NCBI RefSeq assembly: GCF_005938085.1
Contig: NZ_SMZK01000001.1
Coordinates: forward strand, 620,001 to 684,000
Origin: Haloterrigena sp. H1
Lineage (GTDB): Archaea; Halobacteriota; Halobacteria; Halobacteriales; Natrialbaceae
Length of the DNA stretch: 64,000 bases
Direction of reading: 5' to 3'
The position numbers and the translations under genes were made by a program. Below are positions 15,958 to 21,516 of the stretch, in pieces (the first letter of the stretch is position 1; every line of letters begins with the position of its first letter). Below the pieces are notes generated by a model, which ran no database searches, was not told the DNA's origin, and saw nothing but the letters and a program-made list of their open reading frames with translations.

Positions 15958-15965
15958 CTTATTTT
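15958..15965 (+). promoter_or_regulatory. TATA box of the R2lox/ACP operon
   Basis: CTTATTTT at 15958-15965 lies 23-31 bp before ATG 15989, consistent with a leaderless transcript. No other TATA-like site is closer, and the following genes are too tightly spaced to need further strong promoters. Confidence 0.5.
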
Positions 15966-15988: not shown

Positions 15989-16837
15989 ATGCCGCCGGAC
16001 ACACGGGAGACGACGGAGCGATATTTCAGGCAGGCCGTCGAGCGCCACTGGGACCCGTACGCGATCGACCTGACGGCCGACCGAGAGACGCTCACCGACC
16101 TCAGCCGGAGCGCGTTTACCCAGTTGCGCGCGACGCTCGCCATGTTCGGCGCGGGCGAGGAAAGCGTCACCGAGGATCTGGTGCCGGTCGCCGCGGTCGT
16201 CGACGACGACAGCGATCAGCGATTCGTCGCGAGCCACCTCTACGACGAGGCCAAACACGCCGCCTTCTTCGAGCGCTACTGGGCCGACGTTGTCAGGCCC
16301 GCCGCGGAGGCACGCGGCCTCGAGCCGACCGCGCCGACGGCCGACCGGTGGTTCACCGACTCCTACGAGGAAATCTTCAATCGGACCGAAACGGCAATGA
16401 ATCGCCTGCTCGAGGCAGATACGCCCGAAAACCGGGCTCGAGCGTTCTGTCACTACCATCTGACGGTCGAGGGCGTCTTCGGCCAGACCGGTTTTCACGC
16501 CGTCGAGTCGACGTTCGGCCCGGAAACGGATGGGCCGTCGCTTCCCGGGCTGGTCGAGGGATTCAGCGGTATCCGACGAGACGAGGGTCGCCACGTCGGC
16601 TACGGGATGGGTCGACTTGGGGCCCTCCTCGAGCGCGGCGCGGTCGAGCGCTCGCTCGTCGAGGAGACGGTCATGGGCCTCGCCGACCTGGTCGACGCCG
16701 TCGTCGAGCGAATGGGCTGGCGTCGGCTTCCTGGGCCCGACAGCGACGACCTCGTGGCGTTCGTCGCCCAGCAGCGTCGGAACCGACTGCAGCAACTGCC
16801 TGGCGGAAACGCCGTCGACCCGGAGGCCGGGAACTGA
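15989..16837 (+). CDS. R2-like ligand-binding oxidase (R2lox), ferritin-like dimetal protein
   Basis: The 282-residue protein has the R2/ferritin-like four-helix dimetal site. Candidate ligands are Glu57, Glu87-x2-His90 (DEAKHAAFFERYW), Glu161, and Glu199-x2-His202 (RRDEGRHVGYG). R2lox proteins differ from ribonucleotide reductase R2 by a Val-Tyr ether cross-link; here Val60 sits three residues after Glu57 and Tyr156 five before Glu161, as in the known R2lox proteins. Those proteins bind Mn/Fe and a long-chain fatty acid and carry out oxygen chemistry. It is the first gene of an ACP-dependent synthase operon, two bases before the MDR gene. A role in oxidising a fatty acyl product is inference. 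It might instead be annotated as a ribonucleotide reductase small subunit. Confidence 0.8.
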   Translation: MPPDTRETTERYFRQAVERHWDPYAIDLTADRETLTDLSRSAFTQLRATLAMFGAGEESVTEDLVPVAAVVDDDSDQRFVASHLYDEAKHAAFFERYWADVVRPAAEARGLEPTAPTADRWFTDSYEEIFNRTETAMNRLLEADTPENRARAFCHYHLTVEGVFGQTGFHAVESTFGPETDGPSLPGLVEGFSGIRRDEGRHVGYGMGRLGALLERGAVERSLVEETVMGLADLVDAVVERMGWRRLPGPDSDDLVAFVAQQRRNRLQQLPGGNAVDPEAGN

Positions 16838-16839
16838 CG

Positions 16840-17811
16840 ATGCGAGCTATCGAAGTCCACGAATATGGCGACAGCGACGTGCTGACGGTCACCGACCGGG
16901 ACGTACCTGCGCCAAACGCGAATGAAGTCGCTATCGACGTCGCCGCCGCCGGCGTCAACTTCGCCGACATCGAGCAACGCCGTGGGGCCTATCCGGACAG
17001 TCCATCGCCGCCGTTCGTCCCGGGGCTGGCCGTCGCCGGCACCGTCACGGCCGCGCCGGCGACGAGCGACTTCGCGGTCGGCGACCGCGTCGCTGCGCTG
17101 CCGTCGACCGGTGGCTACGCGGCGGTCGCGACGGCACCCGTCGACCGCACGTTTCGGCTCCCAGACGCGATCGCGTGGGCCGACTCGACGGCCCTGCCGG
17201 TCCAGGGGTTGACCGCCCACAACGTCCTCCACGAGTGGGGCGAGTTGTCGGCCGGCGACCGGGTTCTGATCCACGCTGGAGCCGGCGGCGTCGGCTCGCT
17301 CGCCGTCCAGTTGGCCGCCGCGGCCGGGGCGACGGTCTTTGCGACTGCGAGCACCGCGGCGAAACGCGAGTTGGCTCGCGACCTCGGGGCCGACCACGCT
17401 ATCGACTACACGGACATCGACGTCGCGGACGCCGTCCGCGAACGGACGGACGGCCGTGGCGTTGACCTCGTCATCGATGGAGTCGGCGGCGATGCCTTCG
17501 CTGCCAGCGTGGACGCGCTCGCACCGGTCGGTCGCATCGTCTCGTTCGGGATGGCGAGTGGATCGGTGCCGACCGTGGCGACCCCGCGACTGTTCTTCGC
17601 GAATCAATCTGTTCGCGGCTACCACCTCGAGCACGCCCTCGAACACGTTCCCGAGCGCGTCCTCGGTGCGGTGCCGTCGCTGATCGATCACGTCGCGACC
17701 GGCCACGTTGACGTCGTCGTCGACCGGACGCTGCCGCTGGCGGACGCCGAACAAGCACACGACGCGCTTGCTAACCGCGAGACGGTTGGAACAGTCGTCC
17801 TCGAACCCTAA
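16840..17811 (+). CDS. Zinc-independent MDR-family quinone/enoyl oxidoreductase
   Basis: The 323-residue medium-chain reductase begins MRAIEVHEYGDSDVLTVTD. It has the Rossmann motif HAGAGGVGSLAVQLA and DLVIDGVGGDAF, matching NADPH:quinone reductases (QOR). It lacks the structural-zinc cysteines of alcohol dehydrogenases. Within this operon, where no FabI/FabK/FabL is present, it is the only candidate enoyl reductase; MDR enoyl reductases are known in polyketide and fungal fatty acid synthases. That assignment is inference from context. The start ATG 16840 is two bases after the R2lox stop codon. Confidence 0.82.
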   Translation: MRAIEVHEYGDSDVLTVTDRDVPAPNANEVAIDVAAAGVNFADIEQRRGAYPDSPSPPFVPGLAVAGTVTAAPATSDFAVGDRVAALPSTGGYAAVATAPVDRTFRLPDAIAWADSTALPVQGLTAHNVLHEWGELSAGDRVLIHAGAGGVGSLAVQLAAAAGATVFATASTAAKRELARDLGADHAIDYTDIDVADAVRERTDGRGVDLVIDGVGGDAFAASVDALAPVGRIVSFGMASGSVPTVATPRLFFANQSVRGYHLEHALEHVPERVLGAVPSLIDHVATGHVDVVVDRTLPLADAEQAHDALANRETVGTVVLEP

Positions 17812-17866: not shown

Positions 17867-18112
17867 ATGACGGTTACGGAGAACGTATCAGTTCGTGTCG
17901 AAGAGATCGTTGCGGACCGATTGCGCGTCGATTCGGACGTGTTCGACGACGGAACGCCGTTCGACGGCGAGGCGCTCGACGCCGATTCGCTCGATCTGGT
18001 CGAGATCGCGGAGGCTATCGAGGCGGAGGTGGACGTCCACGTCCCCGACGAGGACTTAGAGGACCTCGAGACGGTCGGCGACCTGACGGCGTACGTCGCC
18101 GAGCGCGCCTGA
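17867..18112 (+). CDS. acpP: Acyl carrier protein
   Basis: The 81-residue acidic protein has the ACP fold pattern: helix I (ENVSVRVEEIVADRL), then the 4'-phosphopantetheine attachment motif DADSLDLVEIAEAIE with Ser41, and helix IV (DLETVGDLTAYVAER). Length and motif are those of bacterial type II ACPs. It would carry growing acyl chains as thioesters. The start is ATG 17867, 55 bp after the reductase gene and one base before the ketosynthase ATG. A dedicated AcpS-type phosphopantetheinyl transferase is encoded two genes downstream, which strongly supports function. ACPs are rare in Archaea. Confidence 0.92.
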   Translation: MTVTENVSVRVEEIVADRLRVDSDVFDDGTPFDGEALDADSLDLVEIAEAIEAEVDVHVPDEDLEDLETVGDLTAYVAERA

Positions 18113-18113
18113 G

Positions 18114-19340
18114 ATGGGCCGCGACGTGGTCGTGACCGGCCTCGGACTGGTGACGCCGCTCGGCGAGAGCGTCGAGCGGACCTGGACGGGGCTGCTCGAG
18201 GGTGCAAGCGGTGCGGGGCGGATAACGCACTTCGATCCCGAGGAGGCGGGCCTGCGGGCCTCGACCGCCTGTGAAGTGGAGACGAAGCCGGCAGCTATCG
18301 CGCCCGATGACCGCGTCGACGACCGGACGATGGGCCGGTACGCCCAGTTCGCCGTCGCCGCCACCGCCGAGGCGCTCGACGACACCGGATTCGACGCCGC
18401 CAGCCCCGACTGGAACGCCGAACGGGTGGGAACCAGCATCGGCTCGGGACTGGCCGGCCTGGCCGAAATCGAAGCTGCGGCAGGCGCGCGCCCCTCGCCG
18501 TCGTTTCTCGTGAGCGCGCTGACGAACCTCGCAGCCGGGCACGTCAGCATGACGATCGGTGCGAAGGGGCCGAATCGCGCGCCAGGCACGGCGTGTTCGG
18601 CGGGCACGCACGCCATCGCAGCCGCGGCCGACGACATCCGGCGCGGCCGGGCCGACATCGTCGTCGCCGGCGGCACCGACGCCGCGATCTCGCCGCTCGG
18701 TGTCGGCAGCTTCGACGCGATGCGAGCGCTCAGCACCGCTGACGACCCTGCGACAGCGAGTCGCCCCTTCGACAGCGACCGGGACGGACTCGTTCTCTCG
18801 GAGGGCTGTGGCATCGTTGTTCTCGAGGCACGCGACCATGCCCGCAAGCGTGGCGCGACGCCATACGCCGCGATCACCGGAGCCGGCCGGACCGCCGACG
18901 CCCACCACCCTACGCGGCCGGCCGAAGCGGGTGACGGGCTTCGGCGCTGTCTCGAGCAGGCGCTTTTGGACGCTAACAGGAAGCCGGCCACCGTCGATCA
19001 CGTCAACGCTCACGCGACGAGTACGCCCGTCGGCGACGCCCGTGAGGCCGACGCGCTCGCGACGGTGTTCGGCGAGGTTGAATCCGGCGTCCCGCCGACG
19101 ACGAGTATCAAGGGCCACCTCGGACACGCGCTCGGCGCGGCTGGCGCGATCGAGGCCGTCGTCGTCGCACGGACTATCGCCGAGGGAACGATCCCGCCGA
19201 CGGCAAACTACGAGACGCCCGATCCGGACTGTGACCTGCCGGTCGTCACCGAGCCACGCGAGACGGCCGTCGACGTCGCCGTGAGTACGTCGGCCGGCTT
19301 CGGTGGCACGAACGGGGTACTCGTGTTCGAACGTCCATGA
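18114..19340 (+). CDS. fabF: Beta-ketoacyl-ACP synthase II (FabF-type)
   Basis: The 408-residue thiolase-fold condensing enzyme has the complete Cys-His-His triad of KAS I/II: Cys161 in GTACSAG, His300 in VNAHATSTPVGD and His335 in KGHLGHALGAAG. The gating loop GFGGTN is near residue 395. It condenses malonyl-ACP with an acyl-ACP. It starts MGRDVVVTGLGLVTPLGE, as FabF does, one base after the ACP gene, and its end overlaps the acpS start by 4 bp. Both a fatty acid and a polyketide role are possible. No chain-length factor partner (Cys-less KAS) is nearby, which argues against a type II aromatic polyketide system. Confidence 0.93.
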   Translation: MGRDVVVTGLGLVTPLGESVERTWTGLLEGASGAGRITHFDPEEAGLRASTACEVETKPAAIAPDDRVDDRTMGRYAQFAVAATAEALDDTGFDAASPDWNAERVGTSIGSGLAGLAEIEAAAGARPSPSFLVSALTNLAAGHVSMTIGAKGPNRAPGTACSAGTHAIAAAADDIRRGRADIVVAGGTDAAISPLGVGSFDAMRALSTADDPATASRPFDSDRDGLVLSEGCGIVVLEARDHARKRGATPYAAITGAGRTADAHHPTRPAEAGDGLRRCLEQALLDANRKPATVDHVNAHATSTPVGDAREADALATVFGEVESGVPPTTSIKGHLGHALGAAGAIEAVVVARTIAEGTIPPTANYETPDPDCDLPVVTEPRETAVDVAVSTSAGFGGTNGVLVFERP

Positions 19341-19795
19341 CGATGGCCGACGATGCACCCACTCTCGGCTCCGATCCCGTCGTTTTCCACGGCGTCGACG
19401 TCGTCTCTATCACTCGTATCGCCGACCTGCTCGCGGAGTTCGATGACTCGTTCCGTGACCGCGTGTTCACGCCTGCTGAACAGACCTATTGTGAGGCACA
19501 GGCCGATCCATCACAGCATTACGCCGCCCGATGGGCGGCCAAGGAAGCGTTCCTGAAGACGCTCGCTGGCACGTCTCCCGGCGTGCCCACCGCTGCCATC
19601 GAAATCGACCGCCGGGTCGACGGCCCGCATCTCTCGCTGGCACCCGCCGCGGCCGACGCACTCGCCGCGACGCTCGAGGAACGCGGCAGTTCGCTTGCGA
19701 CGGCCGATATCGATGTCAGCCTGAGCCACGATCAGACCGCGGGCTACGCCGTTGGCTCGGTCACCGTCGTGGGGACGACGACTCGACACCACTAA
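19337..19795 (+). CDS. acpS: Holo-[acyl-carrier-protein] synthase
   Basis: AcpS transfers 4'-phosphopantetheine from CoA to the ACP serine. The 152-residue protein has all AcpS motifs: GVDVVSITRI with Mg-binding Asp21, RVFTPAEQTYCEA, the central WAAKEAFLKTL with Lys69 and Glu70, and VSLSHDQTAGYAV near the end. A short acidic N-terminal extension precedes the domain; ATG 19343 is an alternative start. The 4-bp ATGA overlap with the ketosynthase gene shows tight coupling. Presence of ACP and AcpS in one operon makes a functional carrier system very likely. Confidence 0.92.
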   Translation: MTMADDAPTLGSDPVVFHGVDVVSITRIADLLAEFDDSFRDRVFTPAEQTYCEAQADPSQHYAARWAAKEAFLKTLAGTSPGVPTAAIEIDRRVDGPHLSLAPAAADALAATLEERGSSLATADIDVSLSHDQTAGYAVGSVTVVGTTTRHH

Positions 19796-19822: not shown

Positions 19823-20770
19823 ATGACCACTGCCGAGTCCCTCACGACGCTCGACGGGACGGCGTTTCTCTTCCCCGGCCAGGGGAGCCAGACCGTCGGG
19901 ATGGGACGGGCGTTCTACGACGACTGGCCCGAGACCCGCGCGGTATTCGACCGCCTCGACGCCGCCCTCGAGATCGATCTTCCGGAACTGTGCTTCGACG
20001 GGACCGCCGAGGCGATCCAGCGCCCGAGCAACACCCAGCCACTGTTGTTGGCGACGGGAATCGCGGTCTACGAGGGCGTGACGGCTCGCTTCGACGTCGA
20101 GCCGGCGGCCGTCGCCGGTCACAGCCTTGGGCACTTCACCGCGCTGGCGGCCGCCGGCGCGATCGATCCCGCAACCACAGCAGACCTCACCCACCGGCGA
20201 GGAGTGTGCATGGAACGAGCGGCAGCCGCCGACGGCCCGGGGACGATGGTCGCGGTGTTGCTGGCCGACCCGGAGGAGGTCGCCGAGGTCTGTGCCATCC
20301 GCGAGGACGTCGGCGTCGCCCTCTACAACGCGCCGAAACAGACCGTCATCAGCGGCACAGCCGAGGGCGTGGCGGCGGTCCGGGAACGGCTCGAGGAACG
20401 GACGACCGCCCGGTTTCGCGAACTCGACGTCGGCGCGGCGTTCCACTCGCCGGTGATGGCGTCGGCCGTCGACTGCGTCGAAACGGCGATGGCCGATGTG
20501 ACGCTGCGCGAGGCCCAACTGCCCGTCGTTTCGGACGTGACCGGCGAGTACTATACCGATCCGGCCGTCGCACGGCGAGATCTGACGGCACAGATCACGT
20601 CGCCGGTCGACTGGGTGGCCGTCATCGAAACACTTCGCGAGCGTGGCATCGAGCGGTTCGTCGCGTTCCCGCCGGCCGGAGTACTGTCGGGACTCGTCGA
20701 GCGTATTGCACCTGAGGCCGAGTGCTGGGCGCTCGAGACGCCCGCGGACGCGCGTGAGATGTCCGCATGA
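19823..20770 (+). CDS. fabD: Malonyl-CoA:ACP transacylase (FabD-type)
   Basis: The enzyme loads malonyl groups from CoA onto ACP. The 315-residue protein starts with LFPGQGSQTVGMG, contains the nucleophile Ser101 in GHSLGHFTALAAAG, HRRG with the conserved Arg126, the oxyanion-loop region YNAPKQTVISG, and His208 in AAFHSPVM. The order and spacing are those of bacterial FabD. The start is ATG 19823, 27 bp after acpS; the end overlaps fabG by 4 bp. The malonyl-CoA source (biotin carboxylase) is not in this window. Confidence 0.93.
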   Translation: MTTAESLTTLDGTAFLFPGQGSQTVGMGRAFYDDWPETRAVFDRLDAALEIDLPELCFDGTAEAIQRPSNTQPLLLATGIAVYEGVTARFDVEPAAVAGHSLGHFTALAAAGAIDPATTADLTHRRGVCMERAAAADGPGTMVAVLLADPEEVAEVCAIREDVGVALYNAPKQTVISGTAEGVAAVRERLEERTTARFRELDVGAAFHSPVMASAVDCVETAMADVTLREAQLPVVSDVTGEYYTDPAVARRDLTAQITSPVDWVAVIETLRERGIERFVAFPPAGVLSGLVERIAPEAECWALETPADAREMSA

Positions 20771-21516
20771 TTGACTTCGAGGGCGAGGTCGCGGTCGTCA
20801 CCGGCGGGACACGCGGCATCGGCCGTGCGGTAGCGACGCGACTGGCCGAGTTGGGGGCGACCGTCGTCGCCACCTATCACGAGGACGACGCGGCTGCAGA
20901 CGAGACGACGGCGGCGCTAGCGTCGTTCCCTGCTGAGACAGCAGTCGAGCGATTCGACGTCGCCGACTACGACGCGGTGGCGGCGACGTTCGAGACCATC
21001 GCCGAGCGGTATGGCTCCCCGACAGTACTGGTGAACAACGCTGGAACGGTGGCCGATGGCCTGCTGGTTCGGATGACACCCGAGCAGTGGCAGCGGGTCG
21101 TCGACGTCAACCTCACGGGCACGTTCTACTGTACGCGAGAAGCGGCCAGACGAATGCTACGACGTGACGACCGGGGCGGCCGAATCGTCAACGTCGCGAG
21201 CGTCGCCGCTCAGCACGGTGGGGTCGGGCAGGCCAACTACGCCGCGAGCAAAGCCGGCGTGCTCGGCTTTACGCGTGCGGCGGCCCGCGAACTCGGCGGA
21301 AAGGACATCCGCGTCAATGCCGTCAAACCCGGCTACACCGATACCGACCTGCTCGCGGAGACGCGTGGCCACGAGTCGGCTGTCGAGACGAACACCGCGA
21401 GCGGCCGCACCGCGACGCCCGAGGAAGTCGCTGACGTTATCGCGTTCCTGGCCAGCGACGCTGCCTCGTACGTCAACGGCGAAGTCGTGCGCGTCGACGA
21501 CGGCCTCGTGCTGTGA
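20767..21516 (+). CDS. fabG: 3-oxoacyl-ACP reductase (FabG-type SDR)
   Basis: The 249-residue short-chain dehydrogenase has the cofactor loop TGGTRGIGR (residues 12-20), NNAG at 90-93 and the catalytic set Asn115, Ser145, Tyr158 and Lys162 in GQANYAASKAG. GQANYAASK is very close to bacterial FabG and unlike many sugar-active SDRs. It would reduce 3-ketoacyl-ACP with NADPH. It overlaps fabD by 4 bp and is the last clear member of the operon; tmk follows after 70 bp. FabG-like SDRs are common in haloarchaea, for example in PHA synthesis, but the context argues for ACP substrates. Confidence 0.9.
   Translation: MIDFEGEVAVVTGGTRGIGRAVATRLAELGATVVATYHEDDAAADETTAALASFPAETAVERFDVADYDAVAATFETIAERYGSPTVLVNNAGTVADGLLVRMTPEQWQRVVDVNLTGTFYCTREAARRMLRRDDRGGRIVNVASVAAQHGGVGQANYAASKAGVLGFTRAAARELGGKDIRVNAVKPGYTDTDLLAETRGHESAVETNTASGRTATPEEVADVIAFLASDAASYVNGEVVRVDDGLVL

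Follow-up and report, generated by a model that had tools for sequence, protein, structure and literature searches.

Acyl-ACP desaturases, such as plant SAD and mycobacterial DesA, are ferritin-like dimetal enzymes that use O2 to act on acyl chains bound to acyl carrier protein (ACP). The physiological function of another group of dimetal oxidases, R2lox, has been open since crystal structures were obtained with a bound fatty acid. In GkR2loxI of Geobacillus kaustophilus, the metal ligands and the ether cross-link pair (V72/Y162) have been assigned to individual residues, and the carboxylate of the fatty acid ligates the metals (PMC6060897). Ala171 lines the fatty-acid tunnel and is conserved across the R2lox family (PMC6399176), and Tyr175, a conserved tyrosine at the ligand cavity about 5 Å from the metals, possibly takes part in substrate oxidation (PMC4118035). 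Known R2lox proteins bind fatty acid, and a desaturase role has been proposed for them (PMC6060897, PMC4118035). The sole published answer that we found is an alkane-monooxygenase claim from lysates: GkR2loxI, encoded in a beta-oxidation cluster, is reported as an alkane monooxygenase, and a haloarchaeal R2lox (Halorientalis) is reported to be induced by hexadecane (PMC10867098). The locus described here had been put forward in the original prediction as the first strong contextual hint on an R2lox substrate, a priority which that publication takes away. Archaeal ACP machinery has been described as rare and bacterially acquired (PMC3533463), and a literature search for R2-like proteins, ACP and haloarchaea together returned no report.

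The window, which is the whole analysed stretch of 64,000 nucleotides from Haloterrigena sp. H1, contains an ATG-initiated open reading frame (ORF) encoding 282 amino acids (Table 1). All significant phmmer matches of this ORF among solved structures are R2lox proteins, with the best matches to 4hr0 and 6qk1 (E 3.6e-20 to 9.5e-20) and those of S. acidocaldarius and M. tuberculosis lower down. The phmmer alignment places E57, V60, E87, H90, Y156, E161, E199 and H202 of the window protein on E69, V72, E102, H105, Y162, E167, E202 and H205 of GkR2loxI. Thus, the dimetal ligands originally claimed (Glu57, Glu87/His90, Glu161 and Glu199/His202) all align with GkR2loxI ligands, and Val60 and Tyr156, whose misplacement had been named beforehand as refuting, lie at the cross-link positions; the six metal ligands and the Val/Tyr pair are identical in 108 of 108 aligned R2lox sequences. 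Membership among the ribonucleotide reductase R2 subunits (RNR R2; NrdB/NrdF), which would likewise have spoken against R2lox, is rejected by profile scores and by structure. The NCBIfam R2lox models score 58.9–118.6 bits on the window protein, against 16.2 bits for RNR beta (NF005550, cut-off 309), and the RNR R2 family PF00268 reaches 31 bits against a cut-off of 33.6. An AlphaFold2 model of the window protein (mean pLDDT 91.2) superposes on R2lox structures with Z 29.4–32.1 and on RNR R2 with Z of at most 26.2, among the 50 structures listed by VIA-align. The curated NCBIfam R2lox cut-off, which is a naming threshold and not a defining property of R2lox, is missed (118.6 against 194 bits); since the other haloarchaeal R2lox tested also fall under the NCBIfam R2lox cut-offs, the miss is considered to be a limit of the models. 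Because its Pfam and NCBIfam matches are R2-type yet under the curated cut-offs, the window protein is, as judged from alignment and predicted fold, a divergent R2lox, which resembles R2lox proteins more than it does RNR R2. That the ORF is a chance or frameshift artefact is excluded by intact orthologues and by dN/dS, which is 0.12–0.19 against congeners, similar to that of KAS and MDR, and 0.12–0.24 overall, and indicates purifying selection. The window-type R2lox is present as one copy in the genome.

Table 1. Features of the R2lox-headed cassette in the window.
Feature	Position	Strand	Remarks
TATA-like element CTTATT	15958..15963	+	about 26–31 nt ahead of the R2lox start codon; probably promotes a leaderless transcript
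R2lox-type dimetal oxidase (clade A)	15989..16837	+	ligands E57, E87, H90, E161, E199, H202; cross-link pair V60/Y156; clade-specific H83, G165, F169
MDR-superfamily reductase (Qor/PIG3-like), probable enoyl reductase	16840..17811	+	Pfam ADH_N, ADH_zinc_N
Acyl carrier protein (ACP)	17867..18112	+	PF00550, E 3e-12; DSL phosphopantetheine motif, residue 40
Beta-ketoacyl-ACP synthase (KAS), FabF type	18114..19340	+	TIGR03150 fabF 445 bits; PRK07314 over cut-off; Cys-His-His motifs intact
Holo-ACP synthase (AcpS)	19337..19795	+	PF01648; TIGR00556 over cut-off
Malonyl-CoA:ACP transacylase (FabD)	19823..20770	+	PF00698; TIGR00128 241.8 bits; GHSLG motif
3-Oxoacyl-ACP reductase (FabG)	20767..21516	+	TIGR01830, PRK12826; YxxxK motif

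As had been claimed, R2lox is the first gene of an ACP operon, a tight, co-directional run in the order R2lox-MDR-ACP-KAS-AcpS-FabD-FabG, with successive intergenic gaps of 2, 55, 1, -4, 27 and -4 nt. When the upstream regions of eight cassettes are aligned, the columns of the CTTATT-like element and of AAC..CATG are largely retained although the flanks are otherwise unrelated, so that the promoter probably moves along with the cassette. The operon holds a type II fatty-acid-synthesis (FAS) set of ACP, KAS, MAT, KR and phosphopantetheinyl transferase with intact catalytic motifs. It contains no FabH, and genes for thioesterase, ligase and acyl-CoA functions are absent from the cassette; no FabA/FabZ dehydratase was found in the genome, which has eight MaoC-type loci, all of them outside the operon. 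The PDB relatives of the MDR protein comprise quinone reductases and the enoyl-reductase (ER) domains of PKS/MAS. Since these ER domains are among its relatives, and since KAS clusters lacking R2lox (G243, G299:C3 and G301:C7) have an MDR of the same kind, the MDR is more likely an enoyl reductase than an R2lox partner; its presence in such clusters also marks the MDR as core and R2lox as an add-on.

In a sample of 391 Halobacteria genomes, R2lox was found in 133 and KAS in 17, and the neighbourhoods of the KAS places and of other R2lox genes were covered by 40 genome stretches, 80 named genome loci and five plasmid records. A quick R2lox tree with SH-aLRT support, from which a frame-broken copy of Natrinema SYSU A 869 was omitted, groups 13 window-type sequences as clade A (SH-aLRT 99). 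Its sister is clade B (SH-aLRT 100), consisting of Haloterrigena turkmenica, Haloterrigena sp. KLK7 and G029, and every ACP-linked R2lox on the tree falls within the two clades together (SH-aLRT 97). Eleven of the 13 members of clade A, the window protein included, have exactly the seven-gene order given above, and this order recurs in six distinct flanks in several haloarchaeal families: between SDR/CetZ and tmk in Natrinema; beside phaC and coaD on plasmid pHME505 of Haloferax mediterranei; in one context each in Haloarcula pellucida, Halomicroarcula rubra and Haloarcula amylovorans; and in a context of Natronorubrum with Natronolimnohabitans. G243 has a cassette without R2lox. Of the 11 genomes that have an R2lox of clade A or B, 10 carry KAS, compared with 7 among the remaining 380 (Fisher 1e-14), and KAS is not enriched where a genome has other R2lox alone (p 0.22). 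Both p-values ignore kinship, and the low-identity R2lox of G183 and G390, which are absent from the tree, were counted as other R2lox in this comparison. Neither ACP nor KAS lies near any of the other 86 R2lox from haloarchaea. The neighbourhood survey called for by the original prediction therefore reveals a recurrent R2lox-ACP association that is specific to the clade A+B lineage, and a general link is rejected. Likewise, the idea that the operon context hints at action on a fatty acyl chain holds as a contextual argument for one haloarchaeal subclade, and not for R2lox at large.

Several further observations were made around these loci. On Haloferax mediterranei pHME505 (L090 7089-10003), genes for pantetheine-phosphate adenylyltransferase and the PHA synthase PhaC lie just upstream of the cassette. 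Identical 20.8-kb cassette stretches occur in chromosome and plasmid records of Natronorubrum bangense (L101 and L103), through recent duplication or an assembly artefact. In Natronorubrum, R2lox is directly preceded by genes for a member of the geranylgeranyl reductase family and for a 2Fe-2S protein (L091 9737-11666); by blastp family sharing, relatives of both lie near the Natronolimnohabitans cassette, and a relative of the reductase also near that of Haloarcula pellucida. A glycine-cleavage/lipoate island with IclR, ilvA, gcvT, gcvH, gcvPA, gcvPB, lpd, ridA, glyA, a second lipA and a pdxS-like gene adjoins ACP cassettes at L054/L191 (G369), L056/L190 (G181), L057 (G197) and L055/L189 (G243), with the cassettes at different island ends in three families, which suggests a link between cassette and lipoate supply.

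The MDR tree recovers the same two groups as the R2lox tree, and R2lox, as read from these trees, shares ancestry with its MDR partner. The KAS tree departs from both at a hybrid locus of Haloterrigena, where a B-type half, R2lox-MDR-ACP-KAS remnant (73 aa)-FabG, faces an A-type half, ACP-KAS-AcpS-FabD, such that the halves complete each other (L092 7618-15030 on Haloterrigena turkmenica pHTUR01). The B-type set of G029 lies in two places, with R2lox-MDR 226 kb from ACP-KAS-AcpS-FabD-FabG. These split operons, in which R2lox stayed with complementary parts, are the strongest signs of R2lox working with the pathway. Two cassettes have decayed. One, in G301 (G301:C1), is reduced to R2lox-FabD without MDR, and a separate KAS cluster lies elsewhere in that genome. 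The other is that of Halostella pelagica (G053), where the clade-A R2lox is intact, the MDR is joined to the tail of FabG, and the genome has no KAS. At this locus (L068 8122-9327), the MDR is in frame with a C-terminal FabG part, and ACP, KAS, AcpS and FabD have been lost. With R2lox and MDR kept and KAS gone, either a function without ACP or a recent decay is possible, and Halostella pelagica constitutes the main evidence against a strict ACP dependence of R2lox.

Clade A differs from other R2lox in the tunnel region. Tyr175 of GkR2loxI is replaced by Phe (F169 in the window) in 13/13 clade-A sequences as against 0/86 other haloarchaeal R2lox, and Ala171 by Gly (G165) in 11/13 as against 0/86; position 83 of the window protein is His throughout clade A (13/13) and Gln in all 86 of the others. 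Clade A is thus the natural counterpart of the Y175F protein of crystal structure 6qk1. Ala171 and Tyr175 are secondary features of the described R2lox and do not define the family, and since the window protein keeps neither, it is filed as a divergent subfamily. Clade B is ACP-linked, yet retains both Tyr175 and Ala171, which means that the tunnel change is a hallmark of clade A that linkage to ACP does not require. With Tyr175 absent and Ala171 mostly absent from clade A, an acyl-ACP result obtained there would not simply transfer to the whole R2lox family.

As R2lox stands first in a mobile fatty-acid operon and its active site is altered, its substrate is probably a fatty chain from that operon. 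The best reading of this genomic evidence is an O2-dependent acyl-chain tailoring enzyme, for which acyl-ACP would be the leading candidate substrate. We give about even credence to the view that the window R2lox is inherited along with a small, mobile cassette for type II fatty-acid synthesis as its tailoring component and oxidises the acyl chain made there. In such a scheme, ACP, AcpS, FabD, KAS, FabG and MDR, together with an unlinked MaoC-type dehydratase, would build an acyl chain on ACP; R2lox, as an Mn/Fe or Fe/Fe carboxylate oxidase, would activate O2 at its dimetal site and carry out a two-electron C-H oxidation of the chain (hydroxylation or desaturation), most likely while it is still ACP-bound. 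In clade A, this chemistry would proceed without Tyr175, the residue proposed for oxidation in other R2lox. A ferredoxin could supply the electrons, and the 2Fe-2S protein encoded directly upstream of the Natronorubrum R2lox is a possible donor. The more specific proposal, offered tentatively and with less confidence, is that an R2lox lineage has come to serve a miniature fatty-acid synthase of archaea as its dedicated acyl-ACP oxygenase/desaturase, with Tyr175-free chemistry and a widened tunnel.

In the leading rival, the substrate of R2lox is a free fatty acid released from the cassette, or a hydrocarbon derived from it, and the reaction is a carboxylate-anchored oxidation or decarboxylation. 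The pose in which the carboxylate binds the metals of GkR2loxI (PMC6060897) is open to a free acid and closed to an ACP thioester, and alkane degradation has been reported for GkR2loxI lysate (PMC10867098). Moreover, bacterial R2lox genes on plasmids have genes for acyl-CoA ligases and for alcohol and aldehyde dehydrogenases as neighbours, and in Natrinema a second group of R2lox genes lies ahead of genes for a CoA-transferase, an acyl-CoA ligase and an acyl-CoA dehydrogenase. These acyl-CoA and dehydrogenase contexts of other R2lox fit the alkane-oxidation claim for GkR2loxI and the hexadecane induction reported for Halorientalis, so that R2lox substrates may differ between clades. The window cassette, however, has no gene for thioester release or acyl-CoA metabolism of the kinds named above, and the constant neighbours of its R2lox are biosynthetic and ACP-dependent; a free-acid substrate is considered unlikely here, though it deserves to be taken seriously.

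It is less probable still that the ACP cassette supplies octanoyl-ACP for lipoate, leaving R2lox with a separate or protective role. Such a supply is suggested by four genomes in three families (G369, G181, G197 and G243), in which the cassette lies 5–12 kb from a second lipA in a glycine-cleavage island (gcvT, gcvH, gcvP, lpd, glyA), whereas the window, Haloferax and Natronorubrum cassettes lie outside such an island. All 36 genomes tested have LipA, whether or not they carry the cassette, and none has LipB, so that neither tracks the cassette and lipoate is rejected as its general reason. Where it lies beside a glycine-cleavage island, the cassette may serve, among other things, to supply octanoyl groups; R2lox is not explained thereby, as this account gives an O2-dependent oxidase no role.

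We also regard as quite improbable a two-component redox pair in which MDR passes electrons to R2lox, unrelated to acyl chains and merely carried along with the ACP operon. The 2-nt spacing and matching trees of the two genes are in its favour, as is the occurrence of the pair alone in Halostella pelagica and apart from the ACP genes in G029. Nevertheless, the G029 genome still holds ACP genes of the matching type, R2lox was kept with FabD and not with MDR in G301:C1, and the MDR genes of KAS clusters without R2lox make a role purely as R2lox electron donor unlikely. Very improbable, finally, is a hitchhiking R2lox that owes its place at the operon head to one ancestral insertion by the promoter without a functional link, since the origin of all ACP-linked R2lox from one clade and the retention of promoter-proximal R2lox in the decayed cassettes (G053, G301) are outweighed by purifying selection, by an order unbroken over six contexts in several families, and by the retention of R2lox with complementary parts after operon splitting.

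Acyl-ACP oxidation thus appears to be the most likely function of R2lox in the ACP-linked subclade. A natural R2lox subfamily that moves with ACP, KAS and FabD, and from which clade A has lost the tunnel tyrosine, provides a concrete substrate to test, and an intact copy of the cassette, with E6P09_RS15840 as its R2lox gene, is present in Haloferax mediterranei, a much-used culturable species. The membranes of haloarchaea consist of isoprenoid ethers, and the cassette points to ACP-dependent acyl synthesis in archaea. An acyl-ACP oxygenase or desaturase activity of the protein, if real, would give the R2lox family its first carrier-bound substrate, and this in hosts presumed to be without ACP-dependent fatty-acid synthesis. 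Separately, a plasmid of Streptomyces sp. NBC_00557 (L187 159-8744) carries an R2lox-like gene that encodes the complete set of ligand and cross-link residues. This gene belongs to an NRPS cluster, where it immediately follows the gene for an AMP-binding protein, and its product is a second candidate for a carrier-bound substrate.

Among known systems, bacterial type II FAS clusters (fabD-fabG-acpP-fabF) resemble the cassette in having ACP, KAS, AcpS, MAT and KR with their catalytic motifs. The cassette differs from them in lacking FabH in the operon and FabA/FabZ in the genome, in an enoyl reductase that would be of the MDR type, in the dimetal oxidase at its head and in its haloarchaeal host. 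Acyl-ACP desaturases offer a functional analogy for the proposed role of the window R2lox, which has no Pfam match to them at E 0.01 and none among the 50 structures listed by VIA-align; we know of no Val-Tyr cross-link pair in these desaturases. R2loxI/II of S. acidocaldarius (6qrz, 7qbk) and R2lox of M. tuberculosis (3ee4) have the R2lox fold and metal site in common with the window protein (Z 29–31), at 23–25% identity. GkR2loxI (GK2771; PDB 4hr0 and mutants) shares with it the fold (Z ~32), the 2-His/4-Glu ligands, the Val/Tyr pair and the tunnel region at about 26% identity, but has Tyr175 and Ala171 where the window protein has Phe and Gly, and its gene lies in an alkane/beta-oxidation cluster, whereas that of the window R2lox lies in an ACP operon.
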